Below are positions 27,088-40,604 of a stretch of DNA of 64,000 bases, one piece after another. The stretch is from Rhodococcus sp. SBT000017 (GTDB lineage Bacteria > Actinomycetota > Actinomycetes > Mycobacteriales > Mycobacteriaceae): the NCBI RefSeq assembly GCF_003688915.1, contig NZ_REFU01000001.1, positions 868,001 through 932,000 of the forward strand. Reading direction: 5' to 3'. The stretch's first letter is position 1; each line of letters opens with the position of its first letter. Under the pieces are notes generated by a model that had not been told where the DNA came from, did not search any database, and saw nothing but the letters and a program-made list of their open reading frames with translations. The position numbers and the translations under genes are program-made.

Positions 27088-27093
27088 GTCGTG

Positions 27094-28119
27094 GTGAGTC
27101 CCCGAAACCTCGATGGCCAGTCCCCGATCGACGACGGTACCGAAAATGCGGACATTTCAGGTTCCGGATCGGATGTGCCTCTCGATGCTGCATTGATCGA
27201 GGCAGTCCACGACGCTGTGGCCAACGCCACAGACCTCGACGATCTCGATGATCTCGACGATGACATTCCCGAGCTGCGCTCCCCGATCCTGGTGGCTGCC
27301 TTCGAGGGCTGGAACGACGCAGGCGATGCGGCCAGCGGCGCGATAGAACATCTGGAGCTGATCTGGGACGCCAGCCCGCTGGCCGAATTGGATTCCGAGG
27401 ACTACTACGACTACCAGGTCAACCGCCCTACGGTGCGCCAGGTGGACGGTGTCACCCGCGAGATCGAGTGGCCGTCGACGCGGCTGTCGGTGTGTTCGCC
27501 TCCCGGCAGCTCACGCGATGTGGTGTTGCTGCGCGGCATCGAGCCGAACATGCGCTGGCGCAGTTTCTGCGACGACCTCCTCGAATTCGTCGAACAGCTC
27601 GGCGTCGAGACCGTGGTGATCCTGGGAGCGCTGCTGGCCGACACCCCGCACACCAGGCCCGTTCCGGTGACCGGCACGGCCTACAGCACCGAGTCGGCCG
27701 AACAGTTCAACCTCGAACAGACCCGGTACGAGGGACCGACCGGAATCACCGGTGTACTGCAGGACGAGTGCGTCAAGGCCGGGGTGCCCGCGGTCTCCTT
27801 CTGGGCTGCTGTTCCCCACTACGTCTCTCAACCGCCCAACCCCAAGGCCACCGTGGCGCTGCTGCAGCGAGTCGAGGACGTGCTCGACATCGAGGTACCG
27901 CTCGGCGAACTGCCCACCCAGGCCGAGGAATGGGAAGAGGCGGTGACCGAGATGACGAAGGAAGACGAGGAGATCAGCGAATACGTCCGCAGCCTAGAGG
28001 AGCGCGGCGACGCCGAGGTGGACATGTCCGACGCGATCGCCAAGATCGACGGCGACGCCATCGCGGCCGAGTTCGAGAAGTACCTGAGGCGACGCGGTCC
28101 GGGCAACTTCGGGCTCTGA
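27094..28119 (+). CDS. PAC2-family protein
   Basis: 341 residues. The PAC2 fold starts about residue 65 with SPILVAAFEGWNDAGDAASGAIEHL and includes VVILGALLADTPHTRP and VSFWAAVPHYVSQPPNPKAT. PAC2 is the family named after a eukaryotic proteasome-assembly chaperone, but no assembly function is established for the bacterial members. The first ~60 residues are acidic and disordered (DLDDLDDLDDDIPE). The C-terminus is acidic and helical. It diverges from metH with both promoters in 50 bp. It lies 9.6 kb from mpa, so any proteasome link is speculative. Confidence 0.85.
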   Translation: MSPRNLDGQSPIDDGTENADISGSGSDVPLDAALIEAVHDAVANATDLDDLDDLDDDIPELRSPILVAAFEGWNDAGDAASGAIEHLELIWDASPLAELDSEDYYDYQVNRPTVRQVDGVTREIEWPSTRLSVCSPPGSSRDVVLLRGIEPNMRWRSFCDDLLEFVEQLGVETVVILGALLADTPHTRPVPVTGTAYSTESAEQFNLEQTRYEGPTGITGVLQDECVKAGVPAVSFWAAVPHYVSQPPNPKATVALLQRVEDVLDIEVPLGELPTQAEEWEEAVTEMTKEDEEISEYVRSLEERGDAEVDMSDAIAKIDGDAIAAEFEKYLRRRGPGNFGL

Positions 28120-31416: not shown

Positions 31417-31728
31417 ATGGATGTGAAACGTTTGCCTGTGACGCTCGACAGCGATGACCAAGCCGAGGTGGCCGTGTTCTCCGACCCGAATCGCGCCGAG
31501 TCCGTCATCCTCCGTGCGTGGGCGCAACAGAATCACATTGCGGTCCGCGACAATTCCGAGTCTGGAATCGTCCGTGCATTGCTACGCGCCGGTGCGGAGT
31601 CACTTCGAGAGAAGGCGCTCGAGGCGGGCTACGCAGAGCTCGCCAAAGATCAGGCCGACGGGCTCGACGAGCAACGCGCGCGGCGAAACCGCTACGTCGA
31701 GCAGGTCGACCGGGCCTACGGCGAATGA
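31417..31728 (+). CDS. antitoxin of a MazEF/PemIK-type pair
   Basis: 103 residues, overlapping the toxin gene by 4 bp. Residues about 28-65 (AESVILRAWAQQNHIAVRDNSESGIVRALL) look like a small helical DNA-binding or dimer unit, and the C-terminal third is charged and helical, as in regions that wrap MazF-like toxins. I do not assign the fold with certainty (ribbon-helix-helix is likely). Upstream palindromes suggest it represses its own operon. The family is known to neutralise the partner by direct binding. Confidence 0.75.
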   Translation: MDVKRLPVTLDSDDQAEVAVFSDPNRAESVILRAWAQQNHIAVRDNSESGIVRALLRAGAESLREKALEAGYAELAKDQADGLDEQRARRNRYVEQVDRAYGE

Positions 31729-32045
31729 CGGCCGCAGTTCGCGGGCAAATCTACTGGTGCGACCTGGGGCACGGTGAAAAGCCGTGGGTCGTGGTCTCCA
31801 ACAACGTCCGCAACCGCAACCTGAACACTGTCCTTGCGGCGCGGGTGACCACAACGCCGAAACATGGCATCCCGACAGCCGTCACTCTCGGGAGTTCGGA
31901 CCCACTCGTCGGATCGATTCTCGCCGATGACCTCGTCCAGCTTTTCGACGACGAGATCGCCGCGAGCAGGCCTGCCGGTGCGCTCTCCCCTGCCACTGTG
32001 CTCGAACTGAACAAGGCGCTTGCGGTCGCCCTCGGGCTTCCCTGA
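31725..32045 (+). CDS. MazF/PemK-type toxin (endoribonuclease)
   Basis: 106 residues. MazF-like signature VRGQIYWCDLGHGEKPWVVVSNNVRN at the N-terminus, then LAARVTTTPKHG with the catalytic Thr/Ser strand and VGSILADDLVQLFDDE. MazF toxins cut mRNA at short motifs to stop growth until the antitoxin returns. ATG 31725 overlaps the antitoxin stop (ATGA). The pair sits between nirBD and the Wadjet operon. Confidence 0.85.
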   Translation: MTAAVRGQIYWCDLGHGEKPWVVVSNNVRNRNLNTVLAARVTTTPKHGIPTAVTLGSSDPLVGSILADDLVQLFDDEIAASRPAGALSPATVLELNKALAVALGLP

Positions 32046-32194: not shown

Positions 32195-33718
32195 GTGAGC
32201 GAATCAGGCGAGGACGCGCGGCAGGGAGTCGTGAACGCGTTCGTGGAGGAAGATCGTCTCGGTCTGTTCTCGTTCGCCGTCGCCGAGAAGCGATCCGAGT
32301 ACCTGGCCGTTCTGCGGGCATTCGACACCGCACGAGCCAACTACGTCGTTCTGCTGCACTCCGGAGACGTAGCCGACCTCATCGCACGCAGCCCAGGTCG
32401 GCACGACGCCCTGACCACCCTCGACATCGCACCTCTGCTCGATCAGCTCCACGCCTGGGGCCTGCTCGAACGCAGCTACGACGGCACCCGCGCCGCAACC
32501 CTCGCCGAGTACCGCAACCGTCACTTCGTCTACCAGTTCGGCCAAGCCGGCTACAAGGCCTACCGCGCGGTCGAGGACGTCCTCGGGGCCCGCCTGGACG
32601 ACGCCGCGCTGTCGAGGCTGGTGCTCCCCGAGCTGTTGGCGGATATGCACGAGCTGGCCGAGGCGAACCGTCAGGCAGACGGCGATCGCATCTACCGCAA
32701 GCTCAGCCGACTCGATTCGACGCTGTCGGAGATGGCGACCCGCGCCGCCCACTTCTATCTGGTGCTCGGTGACCTCGTGCGCACCACCGAGATCACGCCG
32801 GAGTCGTTTCTGGTCCACAAGGACGCCCTGCTGACGCACATGCGTGAATTCAGCTCCGATCTGGCTCGCTACGCACCGAAGCTCGCCGAGGCGATAGCAC
32901 TCGTCGAGAGCACCGGGATCGAGGAACTCGTCGAGCGAGCCGCGATCAGCGACGAACGAGTCTTCCTCACCGTGGACGAACGCCGAGCCGACTGGACCGA
33001 TCGATGGGCCGGCCTCTCGCACTGGTTCGTCTCGGCCGAGTCCGAGCTCAGCGAGTCCGAGCGACTCCGTGAGGGCACGATGAGCGCGATCGCCGCCGTG
33101 CTGTCGCTACTGCGCCGCGTCACCGAAACCCGCAAGGGCGGAGTGAGCCGCGAGAGCCAATTGCGCCACCTGGCCGGTTGGTTCGCCGCCGCACCAACCG
33201 AAGACAGCGCGCACGCCCTGTTCCATGCCGTGTTCGGCCTCGGCAGACCACGGCATCTGTCGATGGTGCATCCCGACGCCGACATCATCTCCACGTCCCG
33301 ATCGTGGTGGGAGGCACCGCCGGTCGAGATCTCGCGAACCCTGGCCGAGACCGGACGCACCCCCACCCCCGGTGTTCCGGGACGGGTGCAGCGTAACGAC
33401 GGTGGCATTCGACGCCTTCGGGAGCAGCAACTCGAATCGCAGCGATCACGCAGCGCCGCAGCGCAATCGCTCGCCTCGGCCGGAATCCACGACCGCATTC
33501 TGAGCGAGCAGGAAACCGAGGTGCTGTTGAGCTTGTTGAATGCTGCGTTGACCGCGCGGGTGCGCGTGAGCGGGCGCACCTCAGACTCGTCGGGATCCGA
33601 CAGCGGCGTGCGCCTGACACTGAGCGACAGCGACCGTTCGACGATCGTGCGGACCAGCAGAGGCCGATTGCATCTGGACCGCCTCGCGCTCGAAGTCAGC
33701 GAGGTGGCACGCCGATGA
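32195..33718 (+). CDS. jetA: Wadjet type III component JetA (DUF2397, TIGR02677)
   Basis: 507 residues. N-terminal winged-helix region (LTTLDIAPLLDQLHAWGLLE), a long helical middle and the DUF2397 core SRESQLRHLAGWFAAAPTED plus HALFHAVFGLGRPRHLSM. By family this is the MukF/kleisin-like subunit that links the SMC motor to the rest of the complex. The C-terminal ~150 residues are Arg/Ser-rich. GTG 32195 is fixed by the leaderless promoter, and the stop overlaps jetB (ATGA). Named from family and gene order; function is inferred. Confidence 0.88.
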   Translation: MSESGEDARQGVVNAFVEEDRLGLFSFAVAEKRSEYLAVLRAFDTARANYVVLLHSGDVADLIARSPGRHDALTTLDIAPLLDQLHAWGLLERSYDGTRAATLAEYRNRHFVYQFGQAGYKAYRAVEDVLGARLDDAALSRLVLPELLADMHELAEANRQADGDRIYRKLSRLDSTLSEMATRAAHFYLVLGDLVRTTEITPESFLVHKDALLTHMREFSSDLARYAPKLAEAIALVESTGIEELVERAAISDERVFLTVDERRADWTDRWAGLSHWFVSAESELSESERLREGTMSAIAAVLSLLRRVTETRKGGVSRESQLRHLAGWFAAAPTEDSAHALFHAVFGLGRPRHLSMVHPDADIISTSRSWWEAPPVEISRTLAETGRTPTPGVPGRVQRNDGGIRRLREQQLESQRSRSAAAQSLASAGIHDRILSEQETEVLLSLLNAALTARVRVSGRTSDSSGSDSGVRLTLSDSDRSTIVRTSRGRLHLDRLALEVSEVARR

Positions 33719-35187
33719 GAGCTCGTGAGATCTCCACCCTCGCATTGGATTCCTACCAGCGGGCCGCCCGGGTCGCGCTGTCGAATCATCTGGTGACCAC
33801 CACGTACCCCGATCGGATCGCGCTGCCACTGCTGCGTCGATGGGCCACCGAGTTGCGCGAGGACCTGCTCGAACTGTTCGGGTATCGCCTCGAGGTCACC
33901 GAGACCACCGCACGTCTGTTCCCGGTGATCGACGCACTGGACGACAGCCAACCCGCGCGAACGTCCACCGACCGAATCTTCGACCGCCGCAGATACGCGT
34001 ACCTGGCGTTGGCGCTCGCGGCACTCGGCCGGGCGGGCAACCAGATCACTCTGTCCGAACTCGCCGATCACGTTGCGGCCGAGGCGAGTCAGGTCGACGG
34101 CGTCGAGCTGACGACCGACCGAGCAAGCGACCGAGACGCGTTCGTCGACGCGATCGGCTGGCTCGCGACGCGCGGCGCCATCGCGTTGGCCGACGGCGAT
34201 GCGACCGGCTGGGCGAACAACCCATCCGCGGGCGAGGCGCTCTACGACATCGACCGTCCCGTCGTCGTCGCCATGTTCCGGCCGCCCCGCGCCGTGCAGC
34301 ACCTGCGATCGATTCGCGGTCTGCTGGCCGGCTCGGACGCCCCGATCGATCCCGAGGATTCCGAGCTCGGGATCCACACCGATTCCGGGCGTGAGGCTGA
34401 CCCGAAGGAAACGCTGCGTACGGTACGCCGAGCGTTGGTCGAGCAACCGGTCGTCTACCTCGACGATCTCGACCCGGACGGCCGCACCGCGCTGGCTGCG
34501 TCGCGCACCGTTGCCGACGTCGAGTTGTTGACCGGCCTCGTTGCCGAGCGTCGCTCCGAGGGAGTCGCCCTCATCGACACCTCGGGCCGGCTCTCGGACT
34601 ACCGGTTCCCCAGCACCGGAACCATCGCCCAGGTCGCATTGTTGATTGCGGGCGAAATTTCGGACCGGGTGATCGATCCGGATGCACCCGCGCTGGCGGC
34701 CTACCCCCTTCCCGACGGTGACGCCCTGGTAGAGCAGTTGGACAGCGCCATTCCCGACGGCGGAATCTTCGGCGATCTCGCCGAGTTCGGGTTCGGTTCC
34801 GATGCAACGGCATTCGATGATGCTCAACAGAAGAAGCTGTATCCGTTGATCGAGGACAGTTGGCTGACAACGGTCGTCGACGATCTCGTCGAACGTTTCG
34901 GCCGCACCTTCGCAGCTCAGTGGCAGACCGATCGGGACGGTCTGCGAGTGCGGGCGATCGCGCTGTTGCACCGACTCCGACTGATACACAGCGTGTCCGG
35001 CGGCGTACTGGTGCTGCCGGTGATCGCGCGCTACCGCGACGTGATGGTCAGCGTGCGTGATCGGATCCCGCAGGACTCACTGTTCGGCACCGAACAAGCC
35101 CCCAGCACCGCACAAGCCCCCAGCACCGCACAAGCCCCCAGCACCGCACAGCCCGTCAGTAACGAATCGTCCGAAGTAGAGGCCTGA
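33715..35187 (+). CDS. jetB: Wadjet type III component JetB (DUF2398, TIGR02678)
   Basis: 490 residues. DUF2398 features include ALSNHLVTTTYPDRIALPLL, the RRYAYLALALAALGRAGNQI helix and ALYDIDRPVVVAMFRP. By family it is the MukE/KITE-like subunit that bridges kleisin and SMC heads. An 18-bp tandem repeat gives a (QAPSTA)x3 tail at residues about 461-478, probably flexible. ATG 33715 overlaps jetA; jetC begins 4 bp after its stop. Codon usage looks like that of neighbouring core genes. Confidence 0.88.
   Translation: MRAREISTLALDSYQRAARVALSNHLVTTTYPDRIALPLLRRWATELREDLLELFGYRLEVTETTARLFPVIDALDDSQPARTSTDRIFDRRRYAYLALALAALGRAGNQITLSELADHVAAEASQVDGVELTTDRASDRDAFVDAIGWLATRGAIALADGDATGWANNPSAGEALYDIDRPVVVAMFRPPRAVQHLRSIRGLLAGSDAPIDPEDSELGIHTDSGREADPKETLRTVRRALVEQPVVYLDDLDPDGRTALAASRTVADVELLTGLVAERRSEGVALIDTSGRLSDYRFPSTGTIAQVALLIAGEISDRVIDPDAPALAAYPLPDGDALVEQLDSAIPDGGIFGDLAEFGFGSDATAFDDAQQKKLYPLIEDSWLTTVVDDLVERFGRTFAAQWQTDRDGLRVRAIALLHRLRLIHSVSGGVLVLPVIARYRDVMVSVRDRIPQDSLFGTEQAPSTAQAPSTAQAPSTAQPVSNESSEVEA
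35095..35148. repeat. 18-bp tandem repeat in the jetB tail, 3 copies
   Basis: Three identical units CAAGCCCCCAGCACCGCA at 35095, 35113 and 35131, encoding (QAPSTA)x3. Copy number can vary without frameshift. Confidence 0.95.
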
Positions 35188-35191
35188 GTAG

Positions 35192-38100
35192 ATGACCGCA
35201 CACTCGACACGCTTTCGGCCGACGCGAGCAGGGATCGTCAACCTGTGGGACTACCGCGATCAGGAGTTCTCCTTCGCCGACGGTCGCCTGGTACTGCGTG
35301 GTCCCAACGGATCCGGCAAGACCAAGGCACTCGAAGTGCTGTTTCCCTTCGTCTTGGACGGCCGCATCGAACCCCGCCGACTCAATCCCTTTGCCGGAGA
35401 AGAGCGGACGATGAAATCCAACCTGCTCTACCGAGGGCAGGAAAGCGCGCATTCGTACGTGTGGATGGAGTTCGGCCGCGGTTCACGCGAGGACCCCGAA
35501 TCGGTGACGGTCGGAATCGGAATGCGGGCCAGCCGCCACAACGACAAGGTGACCCGCTGGTACTTCGTGGCCGACGGTCGAGTGGGCGTGGACTTCTCGT
35601 TGTTGGGTTCCGACGACCGGCCGTTGACGAAGAAGCAGCTCGGTGAGCAGCTGGGTACCGACGCGTTGACCGATCGCCCGGTGGACTATCGCGCCGCGAT
35701 CGATGCCCGCATGTTCGGGCTGGGCGCGCAGCGCTACGACCAACTGATCAATCTCATTCTGACGCTTCGTCGCCCGCAATTGGCCAAGAACCTCGACCCC
35801 AAGGGGCTCTCGCAGGCGTTGACCGACGGTCTGCGTCCGCTGGACGAGCAGCTGGTGCTCGAGGCAGCGCGCTCCTTCAGCGACATGGAAGAAGTAGGCC
35901 GGGCACTCGAAGGACTGGCGCAGGCCGATCACGCCGCCAAGAACTTCGTCTCGGTGTACTCCAAATACCTTCGGGTGCAGACCCGTTCGGATGTCGAGCA
36001 GGTCTCGCGCCGGCTCGAGGCGGTGACTCACGCGACCACGGCGCACTTTGCCGCTGCCGCCCTGAAGGACCGGCGGCTGCTGGAACGAGCGGCTGCGGAA
36101 ACTCGATTCGACGAGGCCGAACGCGCCCTGGATCAGGCCGTGGCAGACCGCGAGACCCTGCAGCGCTCGAGCGCATACGAGGGCAAGCAGCAACTGGACG
36201 ATCTGGCCGAGTCCGCTGCGAAGCTGGAGATCTCGACCGCCCAGCAGGCCGACCGCGCACGCAAGGCGCAGGCCGAACTGGAACAGCGCACCACCGAGGC
36301 GGCTCGCGCCGACTCGGCACTCCGGGACTCCGTTGCCGGGGTGACCCGTGCCGAGGAGGAACTGCAGACTGCGGCCGAGGACGCGGGCATCGTCTGGACG
36401 CCACTGCCCGGAACAGCCCGCAGCGATCAGATCAGCACCGCACTGCGTGGCCATGCCGAGGAGCGCGACGGCGACGTGCGGGCGGTGCGTGAGGCGCTGG
36501 GAACCGTCGAGAAGGCGTCGACGGAACGCGCTCGTGCGGAGAAGGCCGCATCGAAGGCTCGCGAGATGCTCGAGGCAGCGTCGGCTGCGGTCACCGAGGC
36601 CGAGGCGACCGTGGACCTGGAGAAGGCGCAGTTCGCCTCGGGACTGCGGGCCTGGTGGTCTGCCAATTCGGCGCTCTACTCCTCCGCGGGCATCACCTCC
36701 GCAGCGTTCGAGGCCCTCGACGCGGCGTTGGCGGGCATCGGCGACGACGATGCCCCGAGCCTGGAATCGGTGTTGGCCGACCAGACCGCAGACGCAGTCG
36801 ACGGGCTTCGTGGCCGCCAGGCCCAGGCACGCGTCGACGTATCGACCCGCACGGCCGAGCTGAACGCGCTGCGTGACGAACTGACCCTGGTGCGCGCCGA
36901 ACACGATGACGCGCCGCCGCCGTTCGCGGCACGAACCGATTCTCGCGTCGAACTCTCGGGCGCTCCTCTGTGGCAGCTGGTTCGGTTTGCCGACTCGGTG
37001 TCCCCTGCCGACGCGGCGGGGATCGAATCCGCACTGCAGGCGGCAAACCTGCTCGACGGCTGGATTCACCCGGTCGCGGACTTCCCCGTCGACTCGAGTT
37101 CGGAGCAGTATCTGTCGCCGCTACCGGAGGCCTCGAGGCCGACCGGGACCACCTTGGCGTCCGTCCTCCAACCCGAGCCCGGTACCGCCGTATCCGAATC
37201 GCGCATCCTCGACGTGCTGAACTCGGTGGCACTGCAACAGGATCAAGGAGCAGTCTCGGGCGGTGCCGTCTCGGTGGGCGTCGACGGTCGGTACTGGCAG
37301 GGGGTGCAGCAGGGCCGCCACACCAAGACCGATGCCGAGTACATCGGCGCGACGGCCCGTGCGCGGCGACGAGAGCAACGGATCGCCGAACTCGGTGCCG
37401 CGATCGAAACCGCAACCGCCGCACTGGCGGCCGCGACGGCCGACGAGCGCTCTGCCCGCGAGTTGGTCCAGGCACTGGCCGCGGCCGCCAAGCAACTGCC
37501 CCGAGTCTCGGCCATCGTGAAAGCGCAACGCGCGGTCACCGCCGCCGCCGGGGCGCTGCGCACCTCGAAGGAGGGGTCCGCAGCGGCCGACCGTGAATTC
37601 GACCAAGCGATTGCAGACCTGTCCGCGAAAGAGAAACAGCTGCGCACCGCCGCCGTGGCTCATCGCACCCCACACATCGGTCGAGACATCGATGCCCTCG
37701 CCGCGGCGATTCGGCATTTCGAGCACCAGGGCTCGGTGGTGATCCGCAAGCGCAGCGATCACACACGCGAAGCAGAACGCGCCCGCGAAGCAACCAACCG
37801 ACTCGAAGAAGCAAGTGGCCTGGCCGAGGAGCTCGCCGAGGAAGCCGCCATAGCCGACGAGAACTACCGACAGCAGGTCCAACGCCTCGAGCTCCTGAGC
37901 GAAAAGCTCGGTGCCACAGCCGAACAGATCGACATTGATCTCGAGAACGCGCGCGAACGCATCGAGAAATGCCGCGCCGAGCAGCGGGCAGCGCGCAAAG
38001 CGGACAAGGAGGCAGGCGAAGCGATCGGCAAGGCCGAGGGGGCCTGCAACACAGCGCTGGAAAGCCTGCGCGGTGCCGTCACGGAAACCCTGGGCGACGC

Positions 38101-39376
38101 CGTGCGTCTCGCGCCCTACGCTCGGAAGGATCTACTCGGCATCCTCGGCGTCCACGAGGCGTACACGTGGCCGGCGAGCGACTCGGCGTGGCTCAGTGTG
38201 GAGCAGATTCTCTATCGAGTCCAGCAGGCCGAGGGTCCCGACGACGAGGTTCCGGTACTTCCGCCGGTGGTGCGCGCGCTGCATTCGGCACTCGATGCGG
38301 CGACGGCGTCGGTGAAAGTCAGTGACTCGAGCCGAAAGTCGACCCGGACGGCGCTGACGAGTGCGCTGCAGGAATTCGACTCGCAGCTCGCCGCATCGGG
38401 TCAGGACTACCGCCTGCAGTGGGATGCGCCGGACGGTTTGACCGTGGTCCGCGTCCAGGACGAGCAGGGCTACTCGTCGGTCGGAGACTTCGCCGACCGA
38501 ATCGGTGCCGCGAGAGCCGATCAGGAGTTGCTGCTGACCGAGCAGGAGCGCCGAATTCTCGAAGATGCACTGCTGACCGGCCTGGCGCAGCAGATTCACG
38601 AGCGCACCGTCGACGCACGTGAGCTGATCGCGCAGATGTCCGCCGAGATGAAGCAGCGCCGCATGTCCTCGGGCAACACGATCGGTGTGCACTGGGTGCT
38701 CGCGGACAACCTCGACGACGGGGCCCGGGCGGTGTCCAAACTGCTCGACCGCGACGCCTCGGCGTTGAACCAGGACGATCTTGCCGCGATGCGAGCCCAC
38801 TTCGCGTCGGAGATCAGGATCGCGCGTGCGGCCCATCCGGAACGGTCCTACCCCGAGATCCTGTCCACGACACTGGACTATCGCCGCTGGCGCGTGTTCG
38901 CCTTCACGCTCATCAGCGGCGACGGCAACGAGGATCGTCTCACCGTCGCACGCCACAGTGCGCTCTCGGGCGGTGAGCAATCGGTGTCGCTGCACCTGCC
39001 ACTGTTCGCCGCGGCACACGTGATGCTTTCGTCCGCCGATCCACATTCGCCTCGACTGCTCGCGCTGGACGAGGCATTCGCCGGTGTCGACGACAACGGC
39101 CGCAGCGAATTGCTCGGTCTGAGTGTGCAATTCGATCTCGATCTGTTCATGACCGGATACGACCTGTGGATCACTTACGGGGACGTTCCCGGCTGCGCGC
39201 ACTACGACCTGGCGCATTCGACAGCCGAGAACACCGTCAGCGCAGCTCTTCTGGTGTGGGAGAACGGCGAACTGTTCGCCGAGCACGACGGTACCGACCT
39301 CGCTGCCGCACTCGGGTCACCGCTGACGCGCCGTGTGCCGACCCGAACCGAAGGTGGGCTGGAGTTTGACCGGTAA
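35192..39376 (+). CDS. jetC: Wadjet type III SMC-like ATPase JetC (TIGR02680)
   Basis: 1394 residues, SMC/MukB layout. Walker A GPNGSGKT at 37-44, two long coiled coils (about 250-480 and 770-970) around a hinge-like centre, signature motif LSGGEQSVSLHLPLF from residue 1258 and Walker B LLALDEAFAGVDD with Asp1293 and Glu1294. All ATPase residues are intact. Wadjet SMC complexes extrude DNA loops and detect small closed circles. The gene is full length and collinear with jetA, jetB and jetD. Confidence 0.92.
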   Translation: MTAHSTRFRPTRAGIVNLWDYRDQEFSFADGRLVLRGPNGSGKTKALEVLFPFVLDGRIEPRRLNPFAGEERTMKSNLLYRGQESAHSYVWMEFGRGSREDPESVTVGIGMRASRHNDKVTRWYFVADGRVGVDFSLLGSDDRPLTKKQLGEQLGTDALTDRPVDYRAAIDARMFGLGAQRYDQLINLILTLRRPQLAKNLDPKGLSQALTDGLRPLDEQLVLEAARSFSDMEEVGRALEGLAQADHAAKNFVSVYSKYLRVQTRSDVEQVSRRLEAVTHATTAHFAAAALKDRRLLERAAAETRFDEAERALDQAVADRETLQRSSAYEGKQQLDDLAESAAKLEISTAQQADRARKAQAELEQRTTEAARADSALRDSVAGVTRAEEELQTAAEDAGIVWTPLPGTARSDQISTALRGHAEERDGDVRAVREALGTVEKASTERARAEKAASKAREMLEAASAAVTEAEATVDLEKAQFASGLRAWWSANSALYSSAGITSAAFEALDAALAGIGDDDAPSLESVLADQTADAVDGLRGRQAQARVDVSTRTAELNALRDELTLVRAEHDDAPPPFAARTDSRVELSGAPLWQLVRFADSVSPADAAGIESALQAANLLDGWIHPVADFPVDSSSEQYLSPLPEASRPTGTTLASVLQPEPGTAVSESRILDVLNSVALQQDQGAVSGGAVSVGVDGRYWQGVQQGRHTKTDAEYIGATARARRREQRIAELGAAIETATAALAAATADERSARELVQALAAAAKQLPRVSAIVKAQRAVTAAAGALRTSKEGSAAADREFDQAIADLSAKEKQLRTAAVAHRTPHIGRDIDALAAAIRHFEHQGSVVIRKRSDHTREAERAREATNRLEEASGLAEELAEEAAIADENYRQQVQRLELLSEKLGATAEQIDIDLENARERIEKCRAEQRAARKADKEAGEAIGKAEGACNTALESLRGAVTETLGDAVRLAPYARKDLLGILGVHEAYTWPASDSAWLSVEQILYRVQQAEGPDDEVPVLPPVVRALHSALDAATASVKVSDSSRKSTRTALTSALQEFDSQLAASGQDYRLQWDAPDGLTVVRVQDEQGYSSVGDFADRIGAARADQELLLTEQERRILEDALLTGLAQQIHERTVDARELIAQMSAEMKQRRMSSGNTIGVHWVLADNLDDGARAVSKLLDRDASALNQDDLAAMRAHFASEIRIARAAHPERSYPEILSTTLDYRRWRVFAFTLISGDGNEDRLTVARHSALSGGEQSVSLHLPLFAAAHVMLSSADPHSPRLLALDEAFAGVDDNGRSELLGLSVQFDLDLFMTGYDLWITYGDVPGCAHYDLAHSTAENTVSAALLVWENGELFAEHDGTDLAAALGSPLTRRVPTRTEGGLEFDR

Positions 39377-40604
39377 CAGCGAATGGCGCGGCAGCGCCGA
39401 ATTGGCTGCACTGCTCGATGCGGCACGAAAGAAGTTGGAATCCAACTGGCTTCGTGTCGGCGGCAACATCACCGTCGACCTGAGCGACGCCCCGGAGCTG
39501 TGGCGTCTGTGCAGCGCGATCTCTCGGTCCAACTCCAGTCTGCATTCTCGGGCGCGCAGCACCAGGCTCGACCTCGAGCGTTTCGACGCGTGGTTGAGCC
39601 ATCCGCTCAACGGCGGCCTCGGACTGATCGACACCCTCACACAGCAGGCCCCGTTGCAGAACAAGAAGAAGATCGCAGCCGACAAGGCTCAGGTCCGCGC
39701 GGATGCACTCGATCGGGCCAGGGAGGTTCTCGGCGGCGATACCGATCGCGAGTGGATCGAGCACTGGATCGCGTCGCTGCTCAATCAGGACGGCACTCTC
39801 GGGGGCCGCGTCGCCGTCGACGCGCTCGCGGTGGCGACACAGGTCCTGGCGCTGCTTCCGGTGGACGGGATGTCGCTGACCGAACTCGCGGAACTGGCCT
39901 GCGGTGATACGAAGGCGCTCTCGGGCGGCGGTGCCCCGAAACTCGTCCTCGACGCATTGTCGTTGCGCGAGAACGTCCCTCGACCCGTCGATCCGGTCGG
40001 CATCAGGGCGTTGTGGGAGACCGCCGGCGTGTCGGTCGACGCAGTGTCCAGCCGGGTGTTGGTACTCGGCTACCGCGTCGACGAAACCCACACGGTGGCT
40101 CGTTGGCTCAACGATGCGGCAGAGGAGGGCATCCCCTTCCCCGTCACCGTGGACATGCTCTCGCGCGGCCCGCTCACCAACAGCTCGTCCACGGTGTTCG
40201 TCTGTGAGAACGTGGCCGTGCTCGCCGCTGCAGCCCGCACCCTCGGTTCGAACTGCGCGAGCCTGATCTGCACCGACGGTCAGCCCTCCGCCGCTGTCCA
40301 CCGGCTGCTGGGCTCACGCGCACCCGGCACCACCATCCGCTGGCGTGCCGATTTCGACTGGGCCGGAGTGCACATGGTGACCCGAGCCATCTCCCGATAC
40401 GACGCCTCGCCGTGGCGCATGGACGTCGACTCCTACCGGGACGCGCTCGATGCACGGAATTCCGAACCACTGAAAGGTCATCCGACGGACAGTCCGTGGG
40501 ACCCGGAACTGGCTGCCGCCCTCCGTGATTCGGGCCGGGCAGTCATGGAAGAACGGCTGATCCCGGATATGCTGACCGATCTGCGGCTGGGACCTGCGAG
40601 CTAG
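39366..40604 (+). CDS. jetD: Wadjet type III nuclease JetD (DUF2399, TIGR02679)
   Basis: 412 residues. The C-terminal half has a Toprim-like metal site: Glu281 in VFVCENVAVLAAA and Asp329/Asp331 in RADFDWAGVHMV; in the family this domain cleaves the plasmid. The N-terminal half (about 1-200) is helical with LSGGGAPKLVLDAL, the DUF2399-type arm. TTG 39366 is favoured because GGTGGG lies 7 bases upstream; GTG 39354 and GTG 39333 are alternatives. It overlaps jetC by 11 bp and ends 12 bp from convergent mshC. Confidence 0.87.
   Translation: MTGNSEWRGSAELAALLDAARKKLESNWLRVGGNITVDLSDAPELWRLCSAISRSNSSLHSRARSTRLDLERFDAWLSHPLNGGLGLIDTLTQQAPLQNKKKIAADKAQVRADALDRAREVLGGDTDREWIEHWIASLLNQDGTLGGRVAVDALAVATQVLALLPVDGMSLTELAELACGDTKALSGGGAPKLVLDALSLRENVPRPVDPVGIRALWETAGVSVDAVSSRVLVLGYRVDETHTVARWLNDAAEEGIPFPVTVDMLSRGPLTNSSSTVFVCENVAVLAAAARTLGSNCASLICTDGQPSAAVHRLLGSRAPGTTIRWRADFDWAGVHMVTRAISRYDASPWRMDVDSYRDALDARNSEPLKGHPTDSPWDPELAAALRDSGRAVMEERLIPDMLTDLRLGPAS

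Follow-up and report, generated by a model that had tools for sequence, protein, structure and literature searches.

In the Wadjet systems treated in passages of PMC10586767 and PMC12647877, the complex extrudes a DNA circle completely and then activates the nuclease JetD. A Wadjet complex of Neobacillus vireti is designated type II in its published title, as given in the reference list of PMC12647877, whereas type I Wadjet, or MksBEFG (Corynebacterium glutamicum, Escherichia coli GF4-3, Pseudomonas aeruginosa PA14), is built from other protein families, namely DUF3375, DUF4194 and JetD_C. EptABCD of Mycobacterium smegmatis is likewise a Wadjet and, according to passages in PMC10586767 and PMC12287153, limits plasmid uptake or maintenance; it looks like a type I system, since, by a figure legend in PMC10123090, the M. 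smegmatis mksFEBG operon is drawn alongside the type I operon of C. glutamicum. In excerpts of PMC10482375, Wadjet is reported from 42% of Actinobacteria, and from 73% of 97 Rhodococcus genomes in combination with restriction-modification and Eleos or PD-T4-3; these excerpts make no mention of missing JetD. Here we describe a jet operon in a 64,000-nucleotide stretch of Rhodococcus sp. SBT000017 (the window; contig NZ_REFU01000001.1, positions 868,001 to 932,000), and compare it with its relatives. Our favoured reading, which we hold with good confidence, is that the type II operon of the window is intact and a vertically inherited resident, and that related lineages have repeatedly lost JetD and kept JetABC for a non-cutting role too.

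Analysis of open reading frames (ORFs) placed four touching or overlapping genes in the order jetA-jetB-jetC-jetD on the plus strand, at 32195-40604, and G+C content by codon position backs all four frames. The first, jetA (32195-33718, 507 aa), encodes a type II kleisin-like subunit (DUF2397) and is followed by jetB (33715-35187, 490 aa), which overlaps the jetA stop and encodes a type II KITE-like subunit (DUF2398); the kleisin and KITE roles are assigned as in passages of the review PMC10586767. The SMC-like ATPase motor is encoded by jetC (35192-39376, 1394 aa, TIGR02680), whose stop is overlapped by jetD (39333-40604, 423 aa from a GTG start), coding for a Toprim/topoisomerase VI-A-like nuclease with DUF3323 and DUF2399. 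NCBIfam cut-offs were exceeded by the products of jetA (TIGR02677, 232.9 bits against 165.85), jetB (TIGR02678, 128.3 against 124.65) and jetC (TIGR02680, 718.9 against 462.85), and the Pfam models DUF2397, DUF2398 (223.4 bits), SbcC_Walker_B, DUF2399 and DUF3323 all pass on the window proteins. Together with the PADLOC matches given below, these results bear out a preliminary description of the same DNA, which had read the four genes as a complete JetABCD Wadjet; as the window has jetD, it does not represent the plain MukBEF or MksBEF without JetD which that description had named as the contrary case.

The catalytic residues also lie where they had been reported. JetC has the Walker A motif GPNGSGKT at residues 37-44 (35300-35323), the ABC signature LSGGEQ at residues 1258-1263 (38963-38980) and the Walker B Asp-Glu pair at residues 1293-1294 (39068-39073, within LDEAF from residue 1292). 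In JetD, the Toprim glutamate is Glu292 (40206-40208) and the two aspartates belong to D340-F-D342 (40350-40358). They are the same triad that was earlier given as Glu281, Asp329 and Asp331, numbered from an alternative TTG start at 39366; that start would yield a protein of 412 aa, a length shared by many of the nearest proteins in the database, against 423 aa from the GTG at 39333.

The subtype is where our analysis departs from the preliminary description, which had called the system type III. The best PADLOC model for each protein was type II (JetA2, 609.6 bits; JetB2, 707.1; JetC2, 1437.9; JetD2, 378.2), and at E <= 0.001 PADLOC listed no type III Jet model for them. Searching the PDB by sequence matched JetC to the JetC chain 9qe0_A (E=5.4e-74) and JetA to the JetA chain 9qe0_E (E=1.2e-15); these proteins of entries 9qe0 and 9qe1 are the only credible sequence relatives of the window Jet proteins there. 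JetB and JetD had no credible PDB match by sequence, and a profile search with JetD likewise returned only chance matches. We infer that 9qe0 and 9qe1 are the N. vireti type II complex, which would share with the window system the JetABCD set and homologous JetC and JetA proteins, and is a far relative of it. Since all best PADLOC models are type II and JetC and JetA match these entries, the window operon is, judged from sequence models, a complete type II Wadjet; the type III label is rejected.

The preliminary description had overlooked that JetD is missing from many relatives. JetC (TIGR02680) and JetA (TIGR02677) exceeded their cut-offs in 37/37 genomes of the genus, and a DUF2399 (PF09664) protein was found in 29 of them; the other eight have no DUF2399 anywhere in the genome. 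Among named loci, taken as the best 80 of 369 matches, 21 have an adjacent jetD, 57 have JetABC without it and two end too early to be judged; all 28 judged Nocardia loci in this set are without jetD. Two genomes named Rhodococcoides kyotonense differ in this respect, one locus (L044) having jetD and the other (L039) having mshC 62 bp after jetC. A wider sample of the family comprised 301 genomes, 122 with JetC and 42 with DUF2399 over cut-off. The two occurred together in 38 of the 122 JetC genomes (39 if one further genome is counted), 23/30 within the genus and 15/92 outside it, and at least six of those 15 JetDs accompany a type II JetC that is distant from the one in the window (28-37% identity). 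As a baseline, PF09664 was present outside the family in 69/83 JetC genomes from the same order, and outside the order in 21/21. In two genomes we also observed a second, distant type II JetABC locus (L155 and L159; JetC 33-34% identical) with no JetD match in the fetched 16 kb, and these are possibly further nuclease-less type II systems.

Where JetD is missing, JetABC remains whole and purifying selection still acts on it. The Walker A, signature and Walker B motifs were intact in 64 of 65 JetD-less rows (three of which repeat a genome), the exception being truncated by a contig end, and in 23/23 rows with JetD; of the 65, 62 have full-length JetA and JetB frames. Median pairwise ratios of nonsynonymous to synonymous substitution rates (dN/dS) in JetD-less groups were 0.026-0.144 for jetA, 0.050-0.190 for jetB and 0.054-0.153 for jetC, compared with 0.050-0.064, 0.085-0.090 and 0.064 in groups with JetD, and with 0.041-0.075 for mshC over all groups. 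The two R. kyotonense loci showed no marked burst of change on the JetD-less branch (L039/L044 changes: JetC 59/46, JetA 14/10, JetB 26/23, mshC 15/7). Canonical Smc was over cut-off in 9/9 genomes tested, and JetABC is therefore an additional complex.

A rival explanation is that JetABC still serves immunity in the JetD-less lineages with an unrelated nuclease encoded elsewhere. Positions conserved in loci with JetD are mostly conserved in JetD-less loci as well (JetA 174/202, JetB 131/151, JetC 384/421), so that a docking surface could remain in use; against this, the eight JetD-less genus genomes contain neither DUF2399 nor a JetD_C (PF09983-type) protein, and a crude frame-based scan found no obvious conserved same-strand gene adjoining the operon. 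We consider this explanation unlikely. When the flanking frames were clustered, most proved to be shadow frames or neighbours specific to one lineage, and no shared candidate for a replacement effector beside JetABC emerged. Nor can a lost JetD-docking site be named, because in the site comparison just one position, JetB D251, was conserved with JetD and mostly changed without it. Elsewhere in JetB, the C-terminal end carries three copies of APSTAQ (residues 462-479, window 35098-35151), adjoining the segment with the largest, yet small, difference in conservation between the two kinds of loci.

The history of jetD was followed on trees of JetC and JetD. The JetDs of the core loci form one clade (support 96/84) in a tree with JetDs of Pseudonocardia, Thermocrispum, Actinophytocola, Nakamurella, Nonomuraea, Acrocarpospora and Streptosporangium and of the outgroup loci, and they sit directly behind the same jetC. 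All seven fetched outgroup loci nearest the core clade have jetD; two family f2 genomes that lack DUF2399 (G962 and G976) lie outside this fetched set. If jetD was ancestral and never regained, 16 losses are counted on the 54-row core JetC tree, or 13 or 10 after collapsing branches with support under 80 or 95; this count includes a JetD-less row, L168, that repeats L157 and reaches only ~0.7 kb past jetC, its genome not being among those with DUF2399. The three figures fall to 14, 11 or 9 if the JetD of locus L067 is a transfer and to 9, 8 or 7 if that of L079 is too. As the core JetDs form one clade, a history of recurrent loss is the better fit than one of recurrent gain, and jetD probably goes back to the core-clade ancestor and has disappeared on many occasions since.

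Several observations weigh against this reading, and some of them favour a history in which the core-clade ancestor was without JetD and jetD was gained several times, by transfer, next to jetC. Direction-free parsimony on the JetC tree needs just five changes in the core, and the placement of the L067 JetD conflicts with that of its JetC: in the tree with the outgroup JetDs it joins the L079 JetD. In approximately unbiased (AU) tests, holding the L067 JetD with the group of the window was rejected (p=0.017), holding the L067 JetC outside that group was borderline (p=0.059), and placing L079 outside was not rejected for JetD (p=0.178). At least one transfer of jetD within the clade (L067) is thus possible. 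The JetD-less loci L039, L054 and L058 moreover end cleanly, with a terminator-like inverted repeat before the convergent mshC and no visible jetD remnant; by eye, the repeat is two-way and lies between jetC and mshC at 14165-14230 of L054 and 14147-14200 of L058. The single core JetD clade, distinct from the other actinobacterial JetDs in the tree, the constant position behind jetC and the jetD-bearing outgroup loci nevertheless make serial gain quite unlikely. Three further points bear on the remaining parts of the reading. The Fisher test on JetC genomes with DUF2399 (38/122 in the family, 90/104 outside; p=8e-18) takes related genomes as independent, and JetC genomes without DUF2399 also occur outside the family (14/104). 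Some JetD-less groups reach dN/dS values of 0.14-0.19, two to three times those of the window's group, and may be under looser constraint; those pairs are also younger, with lower dS. Finally, of the models TIGR02677, TIGR02678, TIGR02679 and TIGR02680, which the preliminary description had proposed as a check, three are exceeded and TIGR02679 falls slightly short, the jetD product scoring 189.1 bits against a cut-off of 196.

Structural comparison of a predicted JetD model gave a Toprim/topoisomerase VI-A fold; at least one fifth of the rows in this comparison (VIA-align on the Foldseek top 1000) are confined to residues 236-423, which leaves the N-terminal part barely probed. The Glu-Asp-Asp triad was invariant in 57 aligned JetDs and in 32/32 of another alignment, and pairwise dN/dS of jetD, where the gene is kept, was 0.095-0.124, above that of jetA, jetC and mshC. 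This higher ratio, together with the 57 named loci that keep JetABC alone, would suit a window operon that is mainly a chromosome-organising complex with JetD as a dying relic; yet a dN/dS of about 0.1 is strong constraint, the triad is intact in both alignments and most genomes of the genus keep JetD, and we regard this view as very unlikely. Artefacts of assembly or annotation, or a JetD too divergent to see, are hardly credible as the explanation of the JetD-less loci: the genomes are drafts and the two loci that stop at a contig end were set aside, but frames were searched in the DNA itself and not in its annotation, the eight JetD-less genus genomes are 99-100% complete, the JetD profile and two Pfam models agree, and in six of the named loci without JetD (L039, L054, L056, L058, L064 and L065) only ~50-65 bp separate jetC from mshC.

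The neighbourhood of the locus points to a resident operon. The window falls within the Rhodococcus fascians group, its best named locus being 98% identical in JetC. Convergent to the operon is mshC (TIGR03447, 728 bits), with 12 bp between the end of jetD and its own 3' end downstream, and mshC adjoins the operon in 30/30 fetched loci of the genus. Upstream lie metH, PAC2 (27091-28119), nirB, a nirD-like Rieske ORF and a PemK-like gene preceded by a small ORF. PAC2 and mshC had been described as flanking the block; mshC does so, and PAC2 is present about 4 kb away, with nirB, the Rieske ORF and the PemK/MazF-like gene between it and jetA. In the fetched flanks of the 80 named loci, PAC2 or metH was found in 54, mshC in 41, both in 32 and neither in 17 (several of them contig ends), so that 63/80 have at least one of these neighbours. 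G+C content does not drop across the operon, and neither an integrase nor a transposase was detected by Pfam among 40 further window ORFs (part of them listed only at E <= 1e-10, with smaller ORFs outside the scan), in line with the earlier statement that none is present. A mobile island is therefore unsupported, the neighbours being common to relatives. Type II JetC is rare on plasmids, with matches in 26 of 72,556 plasmid records, none from Rhodococcus. The operon has long resided in the chromosomes of the Rhodococcus/Nocardia group and is not a mobile island; the preliminary description had suggested a stable resident, and the presence of JetA and JetC in every genus genome backs this more strongly than was claimed.

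Just upstream of jetA, at 31417-32045, the small ORF and the PemK/MazF-like gene (PF02452, 49.9 bits) may form a toxin-antitoxin pair. Because tblastn with either found nothing in 110 loci, many of which end short of that position, the pair looks local to the strain or its nearest kin. The same genome has a separate type I locus (L164, 3335-9810; contig C1, ~2149334-2155809) with JetA1, JetB1, JetC1 and JetD1, in which the jetC1 frame is broken into two open frames (pieces of 772 and 314 aa), by either a real break or a sequencing error.

By homology, JetC, JetA and JetB would assemble into a dimeric SMC motor, which would load on DNA and use ATP to extrude loops. On small circular DNA, extrusion would run to completion, switch on a JetD dimer and lead to cutting. 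Loop extrusion and cutting are ascribed to the window system by analogy with published work on other Wadjets, and the best reading is that its operon would cut small circular DNA. Across the Rhodococcus/Nocardia family, JetABC is the stable core and JetD the dispensable part. Most likely, type II JetABC would also function without cutting, in the handling of chromosome or plasmid DNA much as MksBEF does, and lineages such as that of the window would keep JetD for plasmid restriction. MksBEF of P. aeruginosa resembles the JetD-less complexes in being an SMC motor without JetD; it is described as MukBEF-like, whereas the complexes treated here are type II (TIGR02680) and appear to have lost JetD within one bacterial family. 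More tentatively, and with somewhat more doubt than belief, we propose that JetABC is a second, housekeeping condensin and JetD a plug-in nuclease kept or dropped according to plasmid pressure, so that without JetD the complex would handle the chromosome or silence circles and not cut them.

By itself, the window operon is an ordinary type II Wadjet. We found no description, in the open-access papers searched, of a repeated, nuclease-less and well-constrained type II state in its family. The greater interest lies in this family, in which evolution has parted motor from nuclease repeatedly and, in most loci, at the same chromosomal place. Chromosomal action of Wadjet motors, or any non-cutting role for them, is for that reason directly testable in non-pathogenic Rhodococcus. 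Should the housekeeping-condensin proposal be true, the family would offer a natural series in which one motor, at one locus, occurs in nuclease-off and nuclease-on versions, the L044/L039 pair among them. Counting JetABC as anti-plasmid immunity may overstate defence in Rhodococcus and Nocardia.

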